In this document: in pieces, positions 19,298-27,463 of the stretch
Layout of the letters: every line of letters begins with the position of its first letter
Position numbering within the stretch: position 1 is the stretch's first letter
Origin: Acidobacteriota bacterium
GTDB taxonomy: Bacteria; Acidobacteriota; Thermoanaerobaculia; Gp7-AA8
Length of the DNA stretch: 47,633 bases
NCBI GenBank assembly: GCA_016184115.1
Contig: JACPDH010000033.1
Span: 1-47,633 of the forward strand
Direction of reading: 5' to 3'
The notes under the pieces: generated by a model
Databases searched by the model: none
Told to the model about the DNA's origin: nothing
The model's input: only the letters and a program-made list of their open reading frames with translations
Program-made: the position numbers and the translations under genes

Positions 19298-19416
19298 CGG
19301 GCGTCGCCTGCGCCTAACGTGGCGACCGCCCGACAGGCTGACCTCGGGGTGGCGACGGCGCGAGATTGCCGGTTCGCCTCCCTTCCCCCGAAGCGCAATG
19401 ACTGTATCGTCCCTCC

Positions 19417-19446
19417 TTGACAACCCGCAGGCCTCGCCCCTATCCT
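19417..19446 (+). promoter_or_regulatory. histidine operon promoter
   Basis: A perfect -35 TTGACA (19417-19422), an 18-base spacer and the -10 TATCCT (19441-19446). The expected start point (about 19453-19455) falls on or next to the ATG of the His-rich leader peptide, so the leader message may be leaderless. The first 120 bases of this gap (19298-19416) show nothing assignable. Confidence 0.65.
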
Positions 19447-19454
19447 CGCCGGCG

Positions 19455-19514
19455 ATGAGCAGCTTCACAGTCGTCCGTCAGCACCACCATCTCGCCTGGC
19501 ATCACAGGCCGTAG
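19455..19514 (+). CDS. hisL: histidine operon leader peptide
   Basis: A 19-residue open frame, MSSFTVVRQHHHLAWHHRP, with five histidines packed as HHH-LAW-HH, then TAG. It lies between the TTGACA/TATCCT promoter and a set of alternative hairpins ending in an intrinsic terminator, 132 bases before hisZ. This is the layout of the his leader of enterobacteria, where ribosome stalling at His codons under histidine starvation allows read-through. No Shine-Dalgarno is present; the ATG lies nine bases after the -10, so initiation may be leaderless. Too short to be picked by gene finders. The regulatory role is inferred from layout, not tested. Confidence 0.85.
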   Translation: MSSFTVVRQHHHLAWHHRP

Positions 19515-19527
19515 GGGAGCTGCACGT

Positions 19528-19557
19528 GTCGGCGCCCCGGCGGTAAGGGGCGCTGAC
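19528..19557 (+). promoter_or_regulatory. his attenuator hairpin 1:2 and antiterminator strand
   Basis: GTCGGCGCCCC (19528-19538) pairs with GGGGCGCTGAC (19547-19557) over 11 bp with one G-U, around an 8-base loop. It starts 13 bases after the leader peptide stop. The bases AAGGGGCG (19545-19552) can instead pair perfectly with CGCCCCTT (19586-19593), the left side of the terminator stem, forming the antiterminator. The two pairings are mutually exclusive. Confidence 0.8.
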
Positions 19558-19584
19558 GTCGACCACTCGTACCCGACCGATCTC

Positions 19585-19616
19585 ACGCCCCTTCCCGCTC
19601 AGGGAAGGGGCGTTTT
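19585..19616 (+). terminator. his operon attenuator terminator
   Basis: A perfect 12-bp stem, ACGCCCCTTCCC (19585-19596) with GGGAAGGGGCGT (19602-19613), and a GCTCA loop, followed by T residues (19613-19616). It lies 31 bases before the hisZ ATG. Its left arm is sequestered when the antiterminator 19545-19552/19586-19593 forms. Confidence 0.88.
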
Positions 19617-19646
19617 GCATTTCAGGTCGAGATCGCGAGGAAACGA

Positions 19647-20528
19647 ATGTTGCAGCGAAGAGATGTCGAACGCGGGACGGAGGCGACGCCGGCGCTCCCG
19701 TTTCCCGCCGGAGTGAGAGTGCTGCTCCCCGACGAGGCGGCGCGACGTCGCGCCGTCGAGGGGCGGATCGTGACGCTCCTGGAGAGTTTCGGATATCGCG
19801 AGGTGATCCTCCCGATCCTCGACTTCGCCGGCTGCTACGACGACCGCGGGAGCTCGGTGCCGAACCGTTCGAGCTATCGCCTCGTCGACCGAGACGGCGA
19901 GCTCCTGACGCTCCGCTCCGACTTCACGCCGATGGTGGCCCGCGCGCTCGCGCCTGCGCTCGCTACGGCGGCCCGCACTCGCGTGCTCTACCGCGGCGAC
20001 GTCGTCCGCTGCGAGTCGGCGCGTCTCGGTGGGAGCCGCGAGTACTTTCAGATCGGCGCCGAGCTGATCGGCGACGCGTCGTTCGACGCGGACCTGGAGA
20101 TCGCGCGCCTCGCGATCGCCGCGGCGGGAGGTGACGTGACCTTCAGCTGCGGCGACGCGGCCCTGCCTCCGCTACTCGAATCGGAAGCCGCGCGCGACCG
20201 CAACGCCTCGGGCCTTCTTGCGAAGCTTCGCCGAGGAACTCTCGAGGTCTCCGATCTCGAGACGTGTAGCGTCACCGCGCCAGTCGCCTCGCGCTTCACG
20301 AGTCTTGCGGCCGAGGTCGCCGCGACCGGCTCGCGGCTAGTCGTGGTCTTCGACCCCGACGATGCGGGCGGCTACTACAGCGGCATCCGGTTCAGGATCT
20401 ACCCGCGCGGCTCGAACATCCCCGTCGCGCGCGGAGGCCGATACGACGCGCTCTATCCGAAGTACGGGGCCGACCTACCTGCGGTGGGATTCACGCTGAG
20501 CGTCGACGGACTCGAGGTGGCGAAGTGA
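19647..20528 (+). CDS. hisZ: ATP phosphoribosyltransferase regulatory subunit
   Basis: Histidyl-tRNA synthetase paralogue that lacks aminoacylation and forms the active complex with short HisG. It has 293 residues, shorter than HisRS and without its anticodon domain. The class II core is visible: FGYREVILPILDFAGCY, the motif-2-like LRSDFTPMVARALA and RVLYRGDVVRCE, and a final GGRYDALYPKYGADLPAVGF. The ATG at 19647 follows GAGGAAACGA. The next gene encodes the short form of HisG, which needs HisZ, so the pair is consistent. First enzyme gene behind the attenuator. Confidence 0.9.
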   Translation: MLQRRDVERGTEATPALPFPAGVRVLLPDEAARRRAVEGRIVTLLESFGYREVILPILDFAGCYDDRGSSVPNRSSYRLVDRDGELLTLRSDFTPMVARALAPALATAARTRVLYRGDVVRCESARLGGSREYFQIGAELIGDASFDADLEIARLAIAAAGGDVTFSCGDAALPPLLESEAARDRNASGLLAKLRRGTLEVSDLETCSVTAPVASRFTSLAAEVAATGSRLVVVFDPDDAGGYYSGIRFRIYPRGSNIPVARGGRYDALYPKYGADLPAVGFTLSVDGLEVAK

Positions 20529-21187
20529 GCCGCCCCCTTCGCATCGCGTTGCCGAAAGGACGGCTGCTCGAGCCGCTGCTCGAGCGCCTGCGTGCCGCGG
20601 GCTTCGACGCGCCCGCCGGAGCTGACCTCGCGTCGAGACGGCTCGTCTTCGATCGCGGCGGCTTCGAATGGATTCTCGTGAAGGACGCCGACGTGCCGGT
20701 CTACGTCGAGCAGGGCGCGGCCGACGCGGGGGTCGCGGGGCTCGACCAGCTCCTCGAGCAGACTCCCGACGTGCTCGAGCCATTCGCGCTCGACGTCGGC
20801 AGGTGCCGGCTGATGCTGATCGCCGCAAAGGGCGTCGCTCCTCTCGCGAGCCTGACAAGGCCCGTCGTCGCGACGAAGTACCCGCGCTTCACGCGCGGCT
20901 GGCTGCTCCGACGGCGCGTCTCCGCCGAAGTCGTGGCGCTCGCCGGATCGGTGGAGCTTGCCGCGGTGCTCGGCCTCGCGCCGTACATCGTCGATCTCGT
21001 CGAGACCGGAACGACGATCCGCGTGCACGAGCTCGAGGCGGTCGAGACGATCGCCGAGATCGCGCCGCGCCTCATCGTCAATCGCGAGTCGTTCCGGCTC
21101 GCTCCAGCGCGCGTGCGGGAGCTCGTCTCCCTCGTCGCGTCGCTCGCGATTCCCGAGAACCAGGAGGCAGTGGTATGCGAGTCATAG
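20525..21187 (+). CDS. hisG: ATP phosphoribosyltransferase, short form
   Basis: Catalyses the committed step of histidine synthesis, PRPP plus ATP to phosphoribosyl-ATP. At 220 residues it lacks the C-terminal regulatory domain of long HisG, so feedback control must come through HisZ. Signatures: RIALPKGRLLEPLLERL at the N-terminus, DAGVAGLDQLLEQ, TKYPRFTRGWL, GSVELAAVLGLAPYIVDLVETGTT with the PRPP-binding ETGTT loop. It starts with GTG overlapping the hisZ stop (GTGA). Confidence 0.94.
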   Translation: MSRPLRIALPKGRLLEPLLERLRAAGFDAPAGADLASRRLVFDRGGFEWILVKDADVPVYVEQGAADAGVAGLDQLLEQTPDVLEPFALDVGRCRLMLIAAKGVAPLASLTRPVVATKYPRFTRGWLLRRRVSAEVVALAGSVELAAVLGLAPYIVDLVETGTTIRVHELEAVETIAEIAPRLIVNRESFRLAPARVRELVSLVASLAIPENQEAVVCES

Positions 21188-22476
21188 AGCTGAGTGAGAC
21201 GGCGCGCCGCGCGTGGCTCGCGTCGATCGAGCGCGAGCGGTCGCGGAGCGCGGAAGAAGCGAAGGAGATTGCCGCGGCGATCATCGTGCGCGTCCGCGCC
21301 GGAGGCGACGCCGAGGTGTCGAAGATCCTTCGTGAGCTCGACGGAATCGAGCTCGCGGAGGATTCGATCGCCTGCTGCCCCGAAGGTGGGAGCGCGGCGC
21401 TGGAGCTGGAGACGGCCATCGATCTGGCGATCGCGCGGCTCGCGACGTTCCACCAGCTGCAGAAGCCCGCGTCCGCTCGCATCGTCGACGGCGGCGAGCT
21501 CCGCCAGGAATCGCGCCCGATCCGCCGCGTCGGCGTCTACGTTCCGGGAGGCGCCGCCGTCTACCTCTCGACGCTGATCATGTGCGCGATCCCGGCGCGC
21601 ATTGCAGGAGTCGAGGAGATCGTCGTCGCGACGACGCCGCGCGTCGCGGAGCGCGACGAATTCAAGCTCGTCTGCACGCGGCTCGGGATCTCCGAGGTCT
21701 ATCGCTGCGGCGGCGCGGTGGGGATAGCGGCGATGGCGTACGGGACGGAATCGCTTCGCCGCGTCGACAAGATCGTCGGCCCGGGCAACCGCTTCGTCGC
21801 GGCGGCGAAGGAGCTCGTGCGGGGCGACGTCGGCATCGACCTCCCCGCGGGGCCGAGCGAGATCGTCGTCATCGCCGACGAGACGGCCGACGCCGGGCTC
21901 GTCGCCGCCGACCTCGTCGCGCAGGGAGAGCACGGCGCCGACTCGCTCGCCGTCTGCGTGACGACGAGCGACGCGACCGCACGCGCCGTTGCCGCGGAAG
22001 TCGACCGGAGAATTGACGCAGGCGGAGCCGCCGCGCGCGCGGCGATCGAGAGACTCGGAGCGGTGATCGTCGTGCCGACGATGGACGCCGCAGTTGCGCT
22101 CGCCGATGCGCTCGCCCCCGAGCACCTCAGCGTGCAGTTGCGCGACGCGGGGGAGATCGTCAACCGCATCCGCAATTGCGCCGCGATCTTCGTCGGCCCG
22201 TGGTCGGCGGTTGCGTTAGGCGATTACGTGGCCGGATCGAATCACGTTCTCCCAACGGCCGGCGCGGCGCGCTACGCGTCGTCGCTCGGCGTCGCCGACT
22301 TCATGCGTCGAAGGACCATCGTCACGCTCTCGCGCGAGACCGCGGAGGCGATCGGGCCGGCGGCCGTGACGCTCGCGACCTTCGAGGGGCTTCCGCTGCA
22401 CGCGCAATCGGTGAGGGCGCGACTCGGGCGTGACGGCTCGCCGAGACTGTCGAACCGGGAGGAGGCGGTCCGATGA
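21175..22476 (+). CDS. hisD: histidinol dehydrogenase
   Basis: NAD- and zinc-dependent four-electron oxidation of L-histidinol to L-histidine, the last step of the pathway. It has 433 residues. Motifs: VPGGAAVYLSTLIMCAIPA, VGPGNRFVAAAKELV, LPAGPSEIVVIADE, the zinc ligands Gln and His in AQGEHGADS, Asp in LGDYVAGSNHVLPT, and His in GLPLHAQSV. The ATG at 21175 has AGGAGG seven bases upstream and overlaps hisG by 13 bases; the open frame continues upstream into hisG but that part is not HisD-like. The word GTTAGGC at 22215 supplies a rare TTA leucine codon. Confidence 0.95.
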   Translation: MRVIELSETARRAWLASIERERSRSAEEAKEIAAAIIVRVRAGGDAEVSKILRELDGIELAEDSIACCPEGGSAALELETAIDLAIARLATFHQLQKPASARIVDGGELRQESRPIRRVGVYVPGGAAVYLSTLIMCAIPARIAGVEEIVVATTPRVAERDEFKLVCTRLGISEVYRCGGAVGIAAMAYGTESLRRVDKIVGPGNRFVAAAKELVRGDVGIDLPAGPSEIVVIADETADAGLVAADLVAQGEHGADSLAVCVTTSDATARAVAAEVDRRIDAGGAAARAAIERLGAVIVVPTMDAAVALADALAPEHLSVQLRDAGEIVNRIRNCAAIFVGPWSAVALGDYVAGSNHVLPTAGAARYASSLGVADFMRRRTIVTLSRETAEAIGPAAVTLATFEGLPLHAQSVRARLGRDGSPRLSNREEAVR

Positions 22477-23600
22477 CCACGAAATCAATCGGCTCGGAAC
22501 CGATCGCGAACAACGGTGTCGACTTCGTGCGGAAGGCGATCCGGGCGATCTCGGCGTACACACTCGAGCCGCGAATAGCGCCCGACAAGCTCGACCAGAA
22601 CGAAGGGGCGCTCGATTTTCCCGACGCGCTCAAGCGGGAAGTCGTGACGCGGATCATGCGGCGCCGGTGGAACGTCTACCCCGACTTCGAGGCGGTGGAG
22701 CTGCGCGACGCGATCGCGCGCCGTGGAGGAATCGCGCGGGAGAACGTGCTGGTCGGAAACGGATCGAACGAGCTGCTGATGGTCGCGATGGCGACGCTCG
22801 TCGCTCCCGGCCGCCGTGTCGTCGTCCCGACGCCGACGTTTCCTCTCTACGAAAAGCTCGCGACGATCTTCGGTGGTGAGGTCGTCCCGGTCGACGTCGA
22901 TCCGCACAGCGGGGCGCTCCCCGTCGAGGCGATGATCGGCGCCGCGTCGGGGCCCGATCCCGCCCTCGTCGTGGCCTGCTCGCCAAACAACCCGACGGGC
23001 GGCGTTCTCTCGCTCGGCGATCTCGACGCGCTGCTCGGATCGGGAGCCTTCGTCCTTCTCGATCGCGCGTACGGCGAGTTCTGGGACGACGGATCGCCCC
23101 GGCCGGTCGATCGTCTCGTCACCCTCTCGACCTTTTCCAAGGCGTGGGGTCTCGCATCGCTGCGCATCGGCTGGCTCGAGTCGACGCCGGAGCTCTGTTC
23201 CGAGATGCGCAAGGTGAAGCTGCCGTACAACCTGAACGTCTTCAGTCTGGAGGCGGCGCTCGTAGCGATTGAGAACGAGGCGCTCATGCGGGCGCGCGTC
23301 GCCGACACGATCCGCGAGCGGGCGAAGGTTGCCGCTGCGCTCGCGGCGCTGCCGGGCGTCGAGGTCTTTCCGACGCAGTCGAACTTCGTCGCGTTCCGCG
23401 TCGAGGGGAGCGCCGACGCGCTCTTCGAGCAGCTCATCGCCCGCGGCACGCTCGTAAGGAACATCTCGCGCTATCTGCGATTGGAACGCTGCCTCCGGGT
23501 CTCGATCGGAGAGCCGGCCGAGAACGACAGGTTCCTCGCGTCGATCGCGGCGCTGCTCGGCGCGGAATCCGCTGTGCAGTCGAAAGGAGAGGGCGCATGA
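22473..23600 (+). CDS. hisC: histidinol-phosphate aminotransferase
   Basis: PLP-dependent class I/II aminotransferase, 375 residues, converting imidazole-acetol phosphate to histidinol phosphate. The PLP lysine is Lys223 in TFSKAWGLASLRIGW. Other class features are YPDFEAVELRDAIA, GNGSNELL, PTPTFPLYEKLA, and CSPNNPTGG. The aspartate that contacts the PLP ring nitrogen is in LLDRAYGEF, where DEAY is more usual. The ATG overlaps the hisD stop (ATGA). Confidence 0.93.
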   Translation: MTTKSIGSEPIANNGVDFVRKAIRAISAYTLEPRIAPDKLDQNEGALDFPDALKREVVTRIMRRRWNVYPDFEAVELRDAIARRGGIARENVLVGNGSNELLMVAMATLVAPGRRVVVPTPTFPLYEKLATIFGGEVVPVDVDPHSGALPVEAMIGAASGPDPALVVACSPNNPTGGVLSLGDLDALLGSGAFVLLDRAYGEFWDDGSPRPVDRLVTLSTFSKAWGLASLRIGWLESTPELCSEMRKVKLPYNLNVFSLEAALVAIENEALMRARVADTIRERAKVAAALAALPGVEVFPTQSNFVAFRVEGSADALFEQLIARGTLVRNISRYLRLERCLRVSIGEPAENDRFLASIAALLGAESAVQSKGEGA

Positions 23601-24187
23601 GCAGGATGGCATCGGCCAGTCGGAAGACGAAGGAGACCGAGGTCTCGGTCGCGATCGACCTCGACGGCAGCGGAGCGTCATCGATCGAGACACCGGTCGG
23701 CTTTCTCACGCACATGCTCGATGTGATCTCGCGTCACGGCCGCGTCGAGATGCAGGTCGCGGCGACGGGCGACGTGCACATCGACTACCACCACACCGTC
23801 GAGGACGTCGGTCTCGTGCTTGGCGAGGCGTTTCGCGCGGCGCTCGGCGACAAGCTCGGCATCCGTCGATTCGGGCACGCCTACGTGCCGCTCGACGAAG
23901 CGCTCGCGCGCGTCGTCGTCGACTTCGCGGGCCGGCCGTTCCTCGTCTTCGAGGCGCCGATCGACAAGGAGATGCTGCTCGTTCACCGCGACTTTCCGTT
24001 CGCGCTCGTCGAGGAGTTCTTCAAATCGTTCGCGAACACGTGCGCATGCAACATCCACGTCGACCTGATTCGCGGCCGCAACGGTCACCACGCGGCGGAG
24101 GCGATCTTCAAAGCGTTCGCGATCGCGTTGCGCGAGGCAAAGGAAGTGGTGGGCGGGGGCGTGCCGAGCACGAAGGGGGTGTTGTGA
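23597..24187 (+). CDS. hisB: imidazoleglycerol-phosphate dehydratase
   Basis: Manganese enzyme that dehydrates imidazole-glycerol phosphate, 196 residues, the monofunctional form. Metal and substrate motifs are present: THMLDVISRHG, DYHHTVEDVG, GRNGHHAAEAIFKAFA and the closing STKGVL. It carries no histidinol-phosphatase domain, and no such phosphatase is found in this operon, so that step must be encoded elsewhere. ATGA overlap with hisC. It is followed by a 364-bp gap of repeats before hisH. Confidence 0.95.
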   Translation: MSRMASASRKTKETEVSVAIDLDGSGASSIETPVGFLTHMLDVISRHGRVEMQVAATGDVHIDYHHTVEDVGLVLGEAFRAALGDKLGIRRFGHAYVPLDEALARVVVDFAGRPFLVFEAPIDKEMLLVHRDFPFALVEEFFKSFANTCACNIHVDLIRGRNGHHAAEAIFKAFAIALREAKEVVGGGVPSTKGVL

Positions 24188-24217: not shown

Positions 24218-24543
24218 GTTGTCAGTCGTTGGTTGTTGGACAGGCAGCGAGAGACGATCGGATTGTCATCCCGACGAGCGAAGCGAGGAGGGATCTCGCA
24301 GGCTGGTACAGACATGCAACGAGCAGAGGTTCCCGGGCTGACGACGAAATCTGTACCAGCCTGAGAGGTCCCTCCTTCCGCTCCCGCTTCGCGGGATCGG
24401 TCGTCGGGACGACATCCCGGTCGAGCGGCGCGACAAACCACGAACGAGCAACAACGGGCGTCCCACAACCCACAACCAACAACTAACAACCAACAACCAG
24501 CAACTAACAACCAACAACTAACAACCAACAACTAACAACCACC
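24218..24543. repeat. heptamer inverted repeat, AACAACC type, inside the his operon (locus H3)
   Basis: A short left arm (about 24218-24239, GTTGGTTGTTGG) faces a long right arm (about 24464-24543) made of AACAACC/AACAACT/AACTAAC heptamers. A copy of palindrome family R1 (24265-24413) sits between the arms. The element occupies most of the hisB-hisH gap and ends nine bases before the hisH ATG, leaving no Shine-Dalgarno. Spurious Trp/Leu/Val-rich frames arise on the minus strand. Confidence 0.85.
24265..24413. repeat. dispersed palindrome family R1, copy 2, nested in H3
   Basis: It begins GTCATCCCGACGAGCGAAGC and ends GTCGGGACGAC. Inside, CAGGCTGGTACAGA and TCTGTACCAGCCTG form a second matching pair, and the right arm carries a small extra hairpin CCCGCTTCGCGGG. 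It lies between the two arms of heptamer locus H3. Confidence 0.85.
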
Positions 24544-24551
24544 CCCACACC

Positions 24552-25154
24552 ATGCGCACGACACTCATCGACTCTCCTTTTTCCAACCTCGACTCGATCG
24601 CGAGGGCGCTGCGCCATGTCGGGGCGGAGCTCGAGGTCTCGGCCGATCCGTCGGTACTCGCGGCGGCGCGGCGTATCGTGCTTCCCGGTGTCGGCAGCTT
24701 TGCGGCGGCCATCAAATGGCTCGAAGGAAGCGGCGTCGCTGCAGCGCTTCGCGATGCCGTCGCGTCGGGAGCCTCGCTGCTCGGCGTCTGCCTCGGGCAC
24801 CAGCTTCTCTTCGAGGAGTCGGACGAGATGGGGGAGTGGAAAGGGCTTGGATTCTGCAGCGGTCGCATCGAGAAGTTCGGCAGCGGCGTGCGCGTGCCGA
24901 AGATCGGCTGGAACCGCGTCGAGCTGACCGACGATCCGCTGTTCGACGGTATCCCGCGCGGGGCGTCGTTCTACTTCGTCCATTCGTACCGGGCGGTCGT
25001 CGTCGACCGCGCGCAGCAGATCGCGACGGCCGAGTACGGCGGCGTATTCAATGCCGCGGTCCGGAACGGTCGGGTCACGGGTGTGCAGTTCCACCCCGAG
25101 AAGTCGTCGACCGCGGGGCTGCGGCTGCTGCGGAACTACTGCGGAGGCGCGTGA
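24552..25154 (+). CDS. hisH: imidazole glycerol phosphate synthase glutaminase subunit
   Basis: Class I glutamine amidotransferase that supplies ammonia to HisF, 200 residues. The triad is Cys80 in GVCLGHQ (most HisH have GMQ), and His and Glu in FHPEKS. The oxyanion-strand region PGVGSF and the VPKIGWNRVEL and YFVHSYRAVV blocks are typical. It starts right after repeat H3 with no visible Shine-Dalgarno. The next gene, the HisA-HisF fusion, begins 13 bases after its stop. Confidence 0.93.
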   Translation: MRTTLIDSPFSNLDSIARALRHVGAELEVSADPSVLAAARRIVLPGVGSFAAAIKWLEGSGVAAALRDAVASGASLLGVCLGHQLLFEESDEMGEWKGLGFCSGRIEKFGSGVRVPKIGWNRVELTDDPLFDGIPRGASFYFVHSYRAVVVDRAQQIATAEYGGVFNAAVRNGRVTGVQFHPEKSSTAGLRLLRNYCGGA

Positions 25155-25167
25155 GGCGAATCCGATC

Positions 25168-26676
25168 ATGAGCGAGACCAGCAGAGCAGTCACCGCGCGC
25201 GCCTTCGACGTTGTCCCCTCGATCGACATCCTCGGGGGTGAGGTCGTTAGGCTGTTTCGCGGCAGCTACGATCACGTGACGCGCTACGGCTCCGCCGATG
25301 AAGTCGTCGCGTCGTGGAACGCGCCGGCCGGGACCCGCATCCACGTCGTCGATCTCGAAGGCGCGCGCGACGGGACATTCGCGCTCACGGATCTCGTGGC
25401 GCGCCTCGCACGGAGGTACCGCTTACAGGTGGGCGGAGGCATTCGCTGCTCTGACGACGTCGAGCGCGCGGTTGCGGCAGGAGCGTCGCGGGTCGTTACC
25501 GGCACGATGGCTGTGCGCGATCCGCTCGAGCTCCGTCGCGCGATCGAACGCGTCGGCGCGTCGCGCGTCGTCGTCGCGCTCGATCTCCTCGAAGGGGAGA
25601 TTCGCGTTGCCGGATGGCGGAGCACGCACCGGGCCGATCTCGACGCCGTGCTGCTCGATCTCGAAGCCGCGGGCGTCGAGGAGATTCTCGTCACCGACGT
25701 CGGCCGCGACGGCGCGATGACGGGCCCGGCGTTCGATCTCTATCGCGATCTCGGGTCGCGCACCTCGATGCGCATCCTGGCTTCCGGCGGGCTCGCGCGC
25801 CTCGACGACGTGACGATGCTCGCGCGCGGAGGCTCGGCGTGTGGTGTCATCGTCGGACGGGCGTTGCAGGATCGCGTCTTCAGCTTCCTCGAGGCGATTC
25901 AGGCCGCGGCGAGACGCCCATTGCCCGCGCGCGTCATCCCCTGTCTCGACGTGCGCGGAGGCCGGGTGGTCAAGGGCGTCCGCTTTCAGTCGATCCGCGA
26001 CGCAGGCGACGTCGTCGAATGCGCACGGCGATACGAAGCCGAGGGCGCCGACGAGATCGTTCTGCTCGACATCTCTGCGACGGCGGAGGAGCGTGAAGCG
26101 TCCCGCGAGACGGTGAGACGCGTCGCCGATCAGCTGTTCGTTCCGCTCACCGTGGGCGGTGGCGTCCGTTCGGTCGACGATTTCCGGCGCCTCCTGCGCG
26201 CGGGCGCTGACAGGGTGGCGATGAACTCCGCCGCCGTCGAGGACCCGTCGCTCGTGGAGCGCTGCGCGGGGGAGTTCGGCGTGCAGGCCGTGGTCGTCGC
26301 CTGCGACGCCAGACGGGTCTCCGGCGGATGGGAAGTGATGACGCGCGCGGGATCGGCGACGACCGGCCTCGACGCCGTCGCCTGGTCGCGCCGCGCGGCA
26401 GAGCTCGGCGCGGGGGAGATTCTCCTGACCTCGATCGATCGTGACGGAACGCAGACTGGCTTCGATTGTGCGCTCACACGCGCGGTGACCGGCGAGACCG
26501 GAATCGGTGTAATCGCCTCCGGCGGCGCTGGCCGCTTCGAGCACTTCCACGAAGCGATCGAGTCGGGCGGCGCGTCCGCGGTGCTCGCAGCGTCGCTCTT
26601 CCACGACGGCATCATGTCGATCGGTGCGCTCAAGGAGTATCTGGATAAGAGTGGGGTGGCGGTTCGGAGTTGTTAG
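25168..26676 (+). CDS. hisAF: bifunctional HisA-HisF fusion: ProFAR isomerase and imidazole glycerol phosphate synthase
   Basis: One uninterrupted frame of 502 residues encodes two full (beta-alpha)8 barrels for consecutive steps. Residues ~14-245 are HisA: catalytic Asp20 in VPSIDILGG and Asp139 in VVALDLLEG, with TDVGRDGAMTGP. A short linker (AAARRPLP, 247-254) leads to HisF (255-500): catalytic Asp261 in VIPCLDVRGG and Asp380 in VVACDARR, with LTSIDRDGTQTG and SGGAG. The ammonia-gate residues of Thermotoga HisF map to Arg255, Glu296, Arg349 (Lys in Thermotoga) and Glu417. The ATG at 25168 follows hisH. The last residues and the stop are encoded by the first units of heptamer repeat H4. All active-site residues I can check are present, so both activities are expected. 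Confidence 0.93.
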   Translation: MSETSRAVTARAFDVVPSIDILGGEVVRLFRGSYDHVTRYGSADEVVASWNAPAGTRIHVVDLEGARDGTFALTDLVARLARRYRLQVGGGIRCSDDVERAVAAGASRVVTGTMAVRDPLELRRAIERVGASRVVVALDLLEGEIRVAGWRSTHRADLDAVLLDLEAAGVEEILVTDVGRDGAMTGPAFDLYRDLGSRTSMRILASGGLARLDDVTMLARGGSACGVIVGRALQDRVFSFLEAIQAAARRPLPARVIPCLDVRGGRVVKGVRFQSIRDAGDVVECARRYEAEGADEIVLLDISATAEEREASRETVRRVADQLFVPLTVGGGVRSVDDFRRLLRAGADRVAMNSAAVEDPSLVERCAGEFGVQAVVVACDARRVSGGWEVMTRAGSATTGLDAVAWSRRAAELGAGEILLTSIDRDGTQTGFDCALTRAVTGETGIGVIASGGAGRFEHFHEAIESGGASAVLAASLFHDGIMSIGALKEYLDKSGVAVRSC

Positions 26677-26872: not shown

Positions 26873-27463
26873 ATGCTCAACATCGAAAACCTCAGGTTCG
26901 GCGACTCGGGCCTTCTCCCCGCGATCGTGCGCGACGCGCGGAGCGGGGAGGTGCTGACGCTCGCCTACATGAGTGCGGAATCGCTGGCGAAGACGCTCGA
27001 GACGGGCGAAACCTGGTTCTGGAGCAGGAGCCGGCAGGAGCTCTGGCACAAGGGGGCGACGTCCGGCAACACGCAGCGGGTCGTCAGCATCGCGCGCGAT
27101 TGCGATGGTGACGCGATTCTCGTCGACGTCGAGCCGCAGGGGCCGGCATGCCACACCGGCGCGCGCAGCTGTTTCGGGGAAGGGCGCTTCTCGATTGCGA
27201 CGCTCGAGGAGACGCTGCGGTCGCGCAAGCGCGAGATGCCCGAAGGGTCGTACACGGCGAAGCTTTTCCGCGGCGGCCAGGGAAAGATCCTGAAGAAGAT
27301 CGGGGAGGAGAGCGCCGAGGTGATCATCGCCGCGACGTCGGAAGGGCGCGAGCGTGTCGTCGCCGAGTCAGCGGACCTCCTCTTTCACCTGGTGATGCTC
27401 CTGGTGCACGAGGGGATCGCCTTCGACGAGGTGGTCGGCGAGCTCCGCGAGAGGAGTCGCTGA
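26873..27463 (+). CDS. hisIE: bifunctional phosphoribosyl-AMP cyclohydrolase / phosphoribosyl-ATP pyrophosphatase
   Basis: Two-domain enzyme of 196 residues for steps two and three of histidine synthesis. HisI (about 1-110) has [34 protein letters not shown], and the metal-binding cysteines in [11 protein letters not shown] and [10 protein letters not shown]. HisE (about 112-196) has [30 protein letters not shown] and [13 protein letters not shown]. The domain order is the usual HisI-HisE. It is the last gene of the his operon, and its stop is 39 bases before the oxidoreductase start. Confidence 0.95.

Follow-up and report, generated by a model that had tools for sequence, protein, structure and literature searches.

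How is the histidine biosynthetic operon of a bacterium controlled when its first gene, hisZ, is preceded by a promoter, a short His-rich reading frame, and several RNA segments that could pair with one another in more than one way? This question is raised by positions 19417 to 19646 of a 47,633-nucleotide contig (called the window, which denotes that entire stretch of DNA) from a genome assembly that is 97% complete and is divided among 126 contigs. A preliminary description made from the DNA letters regarded the region as a classical his attenuator in what looked like an acidobacterium. The host assignment is correct, because same-family relatives of the HisZ protein belong to Thermoanaerobaculia or Acidobacteria gp7 AA8/AA10. 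Our computational analysis indicates that the element probably attenuates transcription of the his operon by means of a translating ribosome, a reading to which we assign a probability of roughly 0.92. The relevant features, all on the forward strand, are as follows.

19417–19446 (+), promoter read from the sequence: −35 element TTGACA (19417–19422), 18-nt spacer, −10 element TATCCT (19441–19446)
19455–19514 (+), leader peptide ORF MSSFTVVRQHHHLAWHHRP: ATG at 19455, TAG at 19512–19514, 19 codons including HHH-LAW-HH
19482–19505 (+), His codons of the leader, read from the sequence
19476–19488 (+), segment A, sharing positions with the first His codons; from the minimum-energy fold and from RNAalifold with ten His leaders
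19514–19526 (+), segment B (beginning GGGGAGCU), adjoining the stop codon and competing for C; from sequence, fold, and relatives
19528–19538 (+), segment C (GUCGGCGCCCC), the 5′ arm of the hairpin that the preliminary description called 1:2; from the sequence
19539–19557 (+), segment D, the loop and 3′ arm (19547–19557) of that hairpin; 19540–19552 is the antiterminator 5′ side
19585–19598 (+), segment E, the terminator 5′ arm and antiterminator 3′ side
19602–19616 (+), segment F, the terminator 3′ arm with its T-run
19637–19641 (+), Shine–Dalgarno motif GAGGA of hisZ, not part of the terminator; read from the sequence
19647–20528 (+), hisZ, for the regulatory subunit of ATP phosphoribosyltransferase (PF13393 passes its cut-off; TIGR00443 matches at E 1.3e-46 without reaching its curated cut-off)
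20525–21187 (+), hisG (TIGR00070)
21190–22476 (+), hisD (TIGR00069), start approximate within a frame open from 20668
22473–23600 (+), hisC
23597–24187 (+), hisB
24552–25154 (+), hisH-like glutamine amidotransferase
25051–26676 (+), hisA and hisF in one frame
26873–27463 (+), hisIE

The elements thus stand in the order originally claimed, and the his operon continues downstream of hisZ. Two peculiarities of the operon may be recorded here. The hisA and hisF domains share an uninterrupted frame of 541 amino acids (25051–26676, +), which could be a natural fusion or an assembly effect. Between hisB and hisH, positions 24218–24540 hold about 320 bp of nested inverted repeats together with AACAACCAACAACT repeats, possibly the remnant of a mobile element.

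Most of the anatomy in the preliminary description was accurate. The TTGACA-18-TATCCT promoter is the sole sigma-70-like site within 1 kb, where shuffled sequences are expected to yield 0.0, and the 19-codon leader with its HHH-LAW-HH run is present. The 11-bp hairpin pairs 19528–19538 with 19547–19557 at all 11 positions (one G-U in RNA), and the perfect antiterminator duplex of 19545–19552 with 19586–19593 extends to 19540–19552 with 19586–19598, where 12 of 13 positions pair. The terminator is perfect as well (19585–19596 with 19602–19613, 12/12), and its T-run consists only of TTTT followed by GCATTT. Although the leader ATG was rightly said to lie close to the −10 element, 8 nt rather than nine separate the two, and the ATG is preceded by no Shine–Dalgarno motif.

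A single genome would by itself permit the view that a constitutive promoter, a plain terminator, and a His-rich ORF came together by chance. We therefore consider the eleven loci of the same family in which both hisZ and its upstream region are present; the nearest relative (G001) falls outside this count, with hisB on another contig and no hisZ in the assembly. A His-rich leader ORF lies 160 to 190 nt 5′ of hisZ at ten of these eleven loci, the window included, and the His codons are kept in all ten leaders, one of the checks that had been proposed. The exception (L009/L031) has other, repeat-like sequence upstream of hisZ and no leader. The HisZ proteins of family members are only 41 to 58% identical to that of the window, so the preservation of His leader, promoter, and stems argues for an attenuator beyond chance. 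Moreover, the His run persists in all nine relatives despite divergence at other leader residues, and His leaders occur at 30 of 30 loci examined in another class (see below). We consider a chance assembly of these parts to be practically negligible.

The second proposed check, compensatory change within the stems, gave evidence for both the antiterminator (D:E) and the terminator (E:F). Across 30 leaders, cognate D:E duplexes average −16.98 kcal/mol, versus −14.98 (SD 0.43) for random partners. None of 5000 permutations was as good, nor was any of 5000 made within amino-acid type, in a test that ignores kinship among the sequences. When the hairpin loop alone was matched to the terminator arm, the partner-swap p value was 0.0004. 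Four terminator pairs (101–127, 103–125, 106–122, and 107–121 of alignment A4) have changed on both sides with pairing kept, and the T-run is conserved across the 30 leaders. Covariation says nothing in either direction about B:C and most of C:D, whose segments hardly vary. An equivalent of A:B was recovered by RNAalifold from the ten His leaders, with segment A mostly invariant and so without covariation support. The G-rich stretch 3′ of the leader stop codon, which is segment B, is likewise conserved in relatives.

Folding of the RNA brings out two competing states. The fold of the 191-nt leader region is more stable than that of any of 200 shuffled sequences (z −4.5), and its minimum-energy structure combines A:B, C:D, and E:F, which is the terminated state. 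As read from the sequence, the portion of B at 19514–19521 (GGGGAGCU) can pair with the portion of C at 19531–19538 (GGCGCCCC). Folding 19514–19600 by itself mimics the moment at which a ribosome has stalled, the RNA downstream of it is unoccupied, and the terminator 3′ arm has yet to be transcribed; the structure of lowest energy then contains B:C and D:E and corresponds to antitermination. Because 19540–19552 and 19602–19613 compete for 19586–19598, terminator and antiterminator are mutually exclusive.

Shifting a ribosome mask off the first regulatory codons and onto the stop codon reduced B:C in all 30 leaders (mean expected pairs fell from 5.4 to 0.04–0.3) and reduced D:E in 24 to 26 of the 30, a range set by the footprint assumed. 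Equilibrium folding of the full-length leader comes out in favour of the terminator in every state, including the stalled one. We infer from this that the decision would have to be kinetic, as it is in classical attenuators. For the window leader, D:E is strong enough to win with the ribosome at the stop codon too, unless C:D forms first.

This geometry also bears on the earlier scheme of three stems (1:2, 2:3, and 3:4). The stems exist, but the scheme lacks the competitor segment at 19514–19521. A ribosome covers about 12 nt further downstream, a figure given for a ribosome at a stop codon (PMC4833913), and with its A-site on the His codons at 19482–19505 it could not reach the C arm at 19528. 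The '1' arm being out of reach, the three-stem scheme cannot be complete; B:C pairing would be needed, which amounts to a multi-segment, his-type logic.

The mechanism we propose is as follows. Transcription would start at the leader AUG or a few bases from it, and ribosomes would bind directly at the 5′ end with no Shine–Dalgarno sequence involved. A shortage of charged tRNA-His would stall the ribosome at codons 10 to 12, and B could then pair with C, leaving D free to pair with E as E emerges. The terminator would thereby be blocked and hisZGDCBHAFI transcribed. With histidine plentiful, a ribosome that reaches the stop codon would cover B, so that C:D and E:F form and transcription stops; in the absence of translation, A:B would likewise lead to C:D and E:F. 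Two hallmarks of such a device are present in the leader, namely a short ORF containing successive codons for the operon's own amino acid and a mutually exclusive terminator and antiterminator whose cognate pairing is favoured.

The same hairpin could instead act mainly on hisZ translation by hiding its ribosome-binding site. In nine relatives (L002–L008, L010, and L011), about 11 nt separate the terminator 3′ arm GGGAAGAGG (GAAGAGG) from the hisZ ATG downstream, and the arm may act as the ribosome-binding site too, but the T-run conserved in 30 leaders speaks against translational attenuation, and in the window the GAGGA motif of hisZ (19637–19641) lies outside the hairpin. We regard translational control as the main function as improbable. 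As an observation in its own right, the terminator of those nine relatives could also hide the site GAAGAGG, a point in which the window differs.

Transcription attenuation is therefore retained as the preferred reading, and the position of the message 5′ end becomes the next point of concern. Among 31 leaders of the class, 30 have TANNNT 6 to 12 nt before the leader start (mode 10; 8 in the window), versus 1 and 0 in control windows of equal width; leader starts were picked partly by distance from the −10 element, which sharpens the peak somewhat, yet most leaders offer one reasonable start only. The −35 element matches TTGACA at six of six positions in 21 and five of six in 4 of the 30 leaders scored, with a spacing of 17 or 18. 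None of the 31 leaders carries AGGA, GGAG, or GAGG within 20 nt upstream of its start. Given that transcription starts about 7 nt past the −10 element in C. glutamicum (PMC3896937), the same distance here predicts a 5′ UTR of about 0 to 5 nt, and the window message would start at the leader AUG or 1 to 2 nt upstream of it. On the −10 spacing, a near-leaderless start is thus predicted to be a conserved property of these leaders.

Genes of this kind look ordinary in the organism, since most of the 23 matches to TTGAC-N17-20-TANNNT-N6-12-ATG in the window's genome (versus 2 for a reversed-pattern control) open long reading frames; leaderless genes were estimated at 13.3% in Acidobacteria by an earlier survey (PMC3160421). 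The attenuator could be real with a promoter further upstream and a normal 5′ UTR that carries a ribosome-binding site, and an in-frame ATG is indeed found upstream at 19398. We judge this unlikely in view of the promoter spacing and the lack of Shine–Dalgarno-like motifs just described (at least five of six −35 positions match in 25 leaders), and also because TTGAC and the −10 spacing both recur in 30 of 30 leaders of the other class.

A covariance model built from the His leaders only was used to search 149 genomes of the class. Besides his loci, it picked up additional sites within the family, mostly with E values of 1e-6 to 1e-13, whose architecture is the same but whose codons are different. 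Runs of Tyr/Phe codons (e.g., MNHTAPRYAYYYGYFT) precede genes for chorismate mutase and DAHP synthase, whereas runs of Trp codons (e.g., MNASLRLWWWPSSE) precede a dehydroquinase–shikimate dehydrogenase gene (aroDE) or, at L136 and L138, trpE, an assignment made by eye at L136. A Trp copy is also present in the genome to which the window belongs (G000:C85:492-683, minus strand; L130/L190), where the leader peptide MFSMHADRYLWWWRSRC comes with the shared RNA cassette and a gene for type I dehydroquinase lies downstream. Because codon type matches the downstream pathway in independent operons, these sites are strong evidence that ribosomes read the leaders. Together with the conserved His codons and the compensatory stem changes, this match supports the ribosome-controlled his attenuation suggested at the outset.

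The Gp7 cassette consists of the post-stop G-rich segment, the GCGCCCC/GGGGCGC hairpin, and the CCTCTTC terminator. To probe duplication within a genome as the origin of the His, Tyr, and Trp copies, identity across amino-acid types was compared and came out the same within genomes (0.624) as between genomes (0.625), and the nearest neighbour of a cassette has the same amino-acid type in 22 of 30 cases. Weak model matches outside the family (e.g., L107–L109, L111–L114, L116–L118, and L120–L123) have no matching leader and were dismissed as chance. His-rich ORFs also precede hisZ in three more families of the window's class (L105, L110, and L115), but their model scores are weak and they lack the usual −10 spacing.

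Two other near-leaderless small ORFs were noted in the same genome. One, MHRFAVPAMMMMRRPGASDVCRG (G000:C90:89873-89916, minus strand; L191), lies upstream of a gene for a PLP enzyme of Cys/Met metabolism (PF01053) and is a possible Met leader. The other, MTLVRFACRFACACCM (G000:C121:40626-40669, minus strand; L197), precedes a cysteine-synthase-like gene (PF00291), with a hairpin and its T-rich tail in between, and is a possible Cys attenuator.

Weak model matches also led to family f25, which belongs to a different class and is related to the window's family at the level of phylum only. At 30 of 30 hisI loci examined (L206–L235, from 71 genomes with a match), there is a leader with 5 to 9 His codons, TTGAC upstream, and TANNNT 6 to 12 nt before the start; one of these leaders (L234) has a Shine–Dalgarno-like tetramer. 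Like the window's leader, these are His-rich, near-leaderless, and followed by a terminator before a his operon. They differ in that the first gene is hisI and in a simpler RNA design, in which the antiterminator 5′ side, which pairs with the terminator arm, lies within the leader ORF (GTGTCGGCGG, encoding SVSAD in the recurrent peptide tail SVSAD..GL), so that a ribosome could mask this strand directly. The cognate antiterminator pairing scores −22.36 versus −19.61 (SD 0.50) for permuted partners, with 0 of 5000 permutations as good (29 loci).

Hence the near-leaderless device appears, from these comparisons of sequence, to recur in two distant branches of the phylum, with Tyr/Trp re-coding in one, and the phylum would hold two different RNA designs for his operon control. 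A broader view, which we put forward tentatively and at somewhat less than even odds, is that a phylum-wide set of near-leaderless attenuators exists, that a single Gp7 cassette serving His, Tyr/Phe, and Trp was copied and retargeted by codon changes only, and that the start at a 5′ AUG is functional, tying the first ribosome to RNA polymerase.

We also considered that a T-box or other riboswitch might take the place of a translated leader peptide. T-boxes control his genes in Firmicutes and Actinobacteria (PMC9413887, PMC3896937), but an Rfam scan of the region gave no T-box or riboswitch match, either at the gathering score or at E values up to 10. The parts that are conserved, namely the reading frame, the pathway-matching codon runs, and the stop-adjacent segment, also argue against a T-box. 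With the T-box covariance model unmatched, this identity was rejected, and we hold it to be very improbable. The Rfam His_leader family (RF00514, gathering threshold 49 bits) had no match in the window's genome and none over its cut-off in 199 Acidobacteriota genomes, whereas two of 14 control genomes matched, one of them over the cut-off; membership in this family was likewise rejected.

Nevertheless, the leader would follow the logic of the known his attenuators. The E. coli and Salmonella element uses segments whose pairings exclude one another and yield a terminated and an antiterminated state, as does the element described here. It also shares a leader with a His run, an intrinsic terminator, and a his operon downstream (PMC3896937), but the window leader differs from RF00514 in lacking a sequence–structure match, in having hisZ as the first gene, and in starting 8 nt from the −10 element with no Shine–Dalgarno motif. 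The label of a classical his attenuator thus holds for the his-type logic and understates the rest, since the element falls outside Rfam His_leader, is predicted to be near-leaderless, and belongs to a cassette that serves other amino acids.

Attenuators of his genes have been reported from Proteobacteria and from some Firmicutes (PMC9413887, PMC2965389). The Firmicutes elements resemble ours in having a His-rich peptide and a terminator/antiterminator before his genes or hisZ/hisS paralogues while remaining unmatched by RF00514; they belong to another phylum, and the text consulted does not describe their starts as leaderless. A search of the openly readable literature found no earlier acidobacterial his attenuator, and a survey of bacterial attenuators associated a function with almost none of those predicted in Acidobacteria (PMC2965389). 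For this major soil phylum, a function, a mechanism, and a family can now be proposed for attenuators of his, aromatic, and possibly sulfur amino-acid operons.

The near-leaderless start raises the question of whether loading of ribosomes on the 5′ end, with no Shine–Dalgarno step, makes the coupling of transcription and translation at attenuators reliable. The closest parallels in this respect are S. meliloti trpL (PMC10117765) and, among Actinobacteria, S. lividans leuL, metL, and thrL (PMC8079986), whose leader ORFs also lie at the very 5′ end of the message. These serve other amino acids in other phyla, and their 5′ ends were mapped, whereas ours are predicted from promoter spacing.
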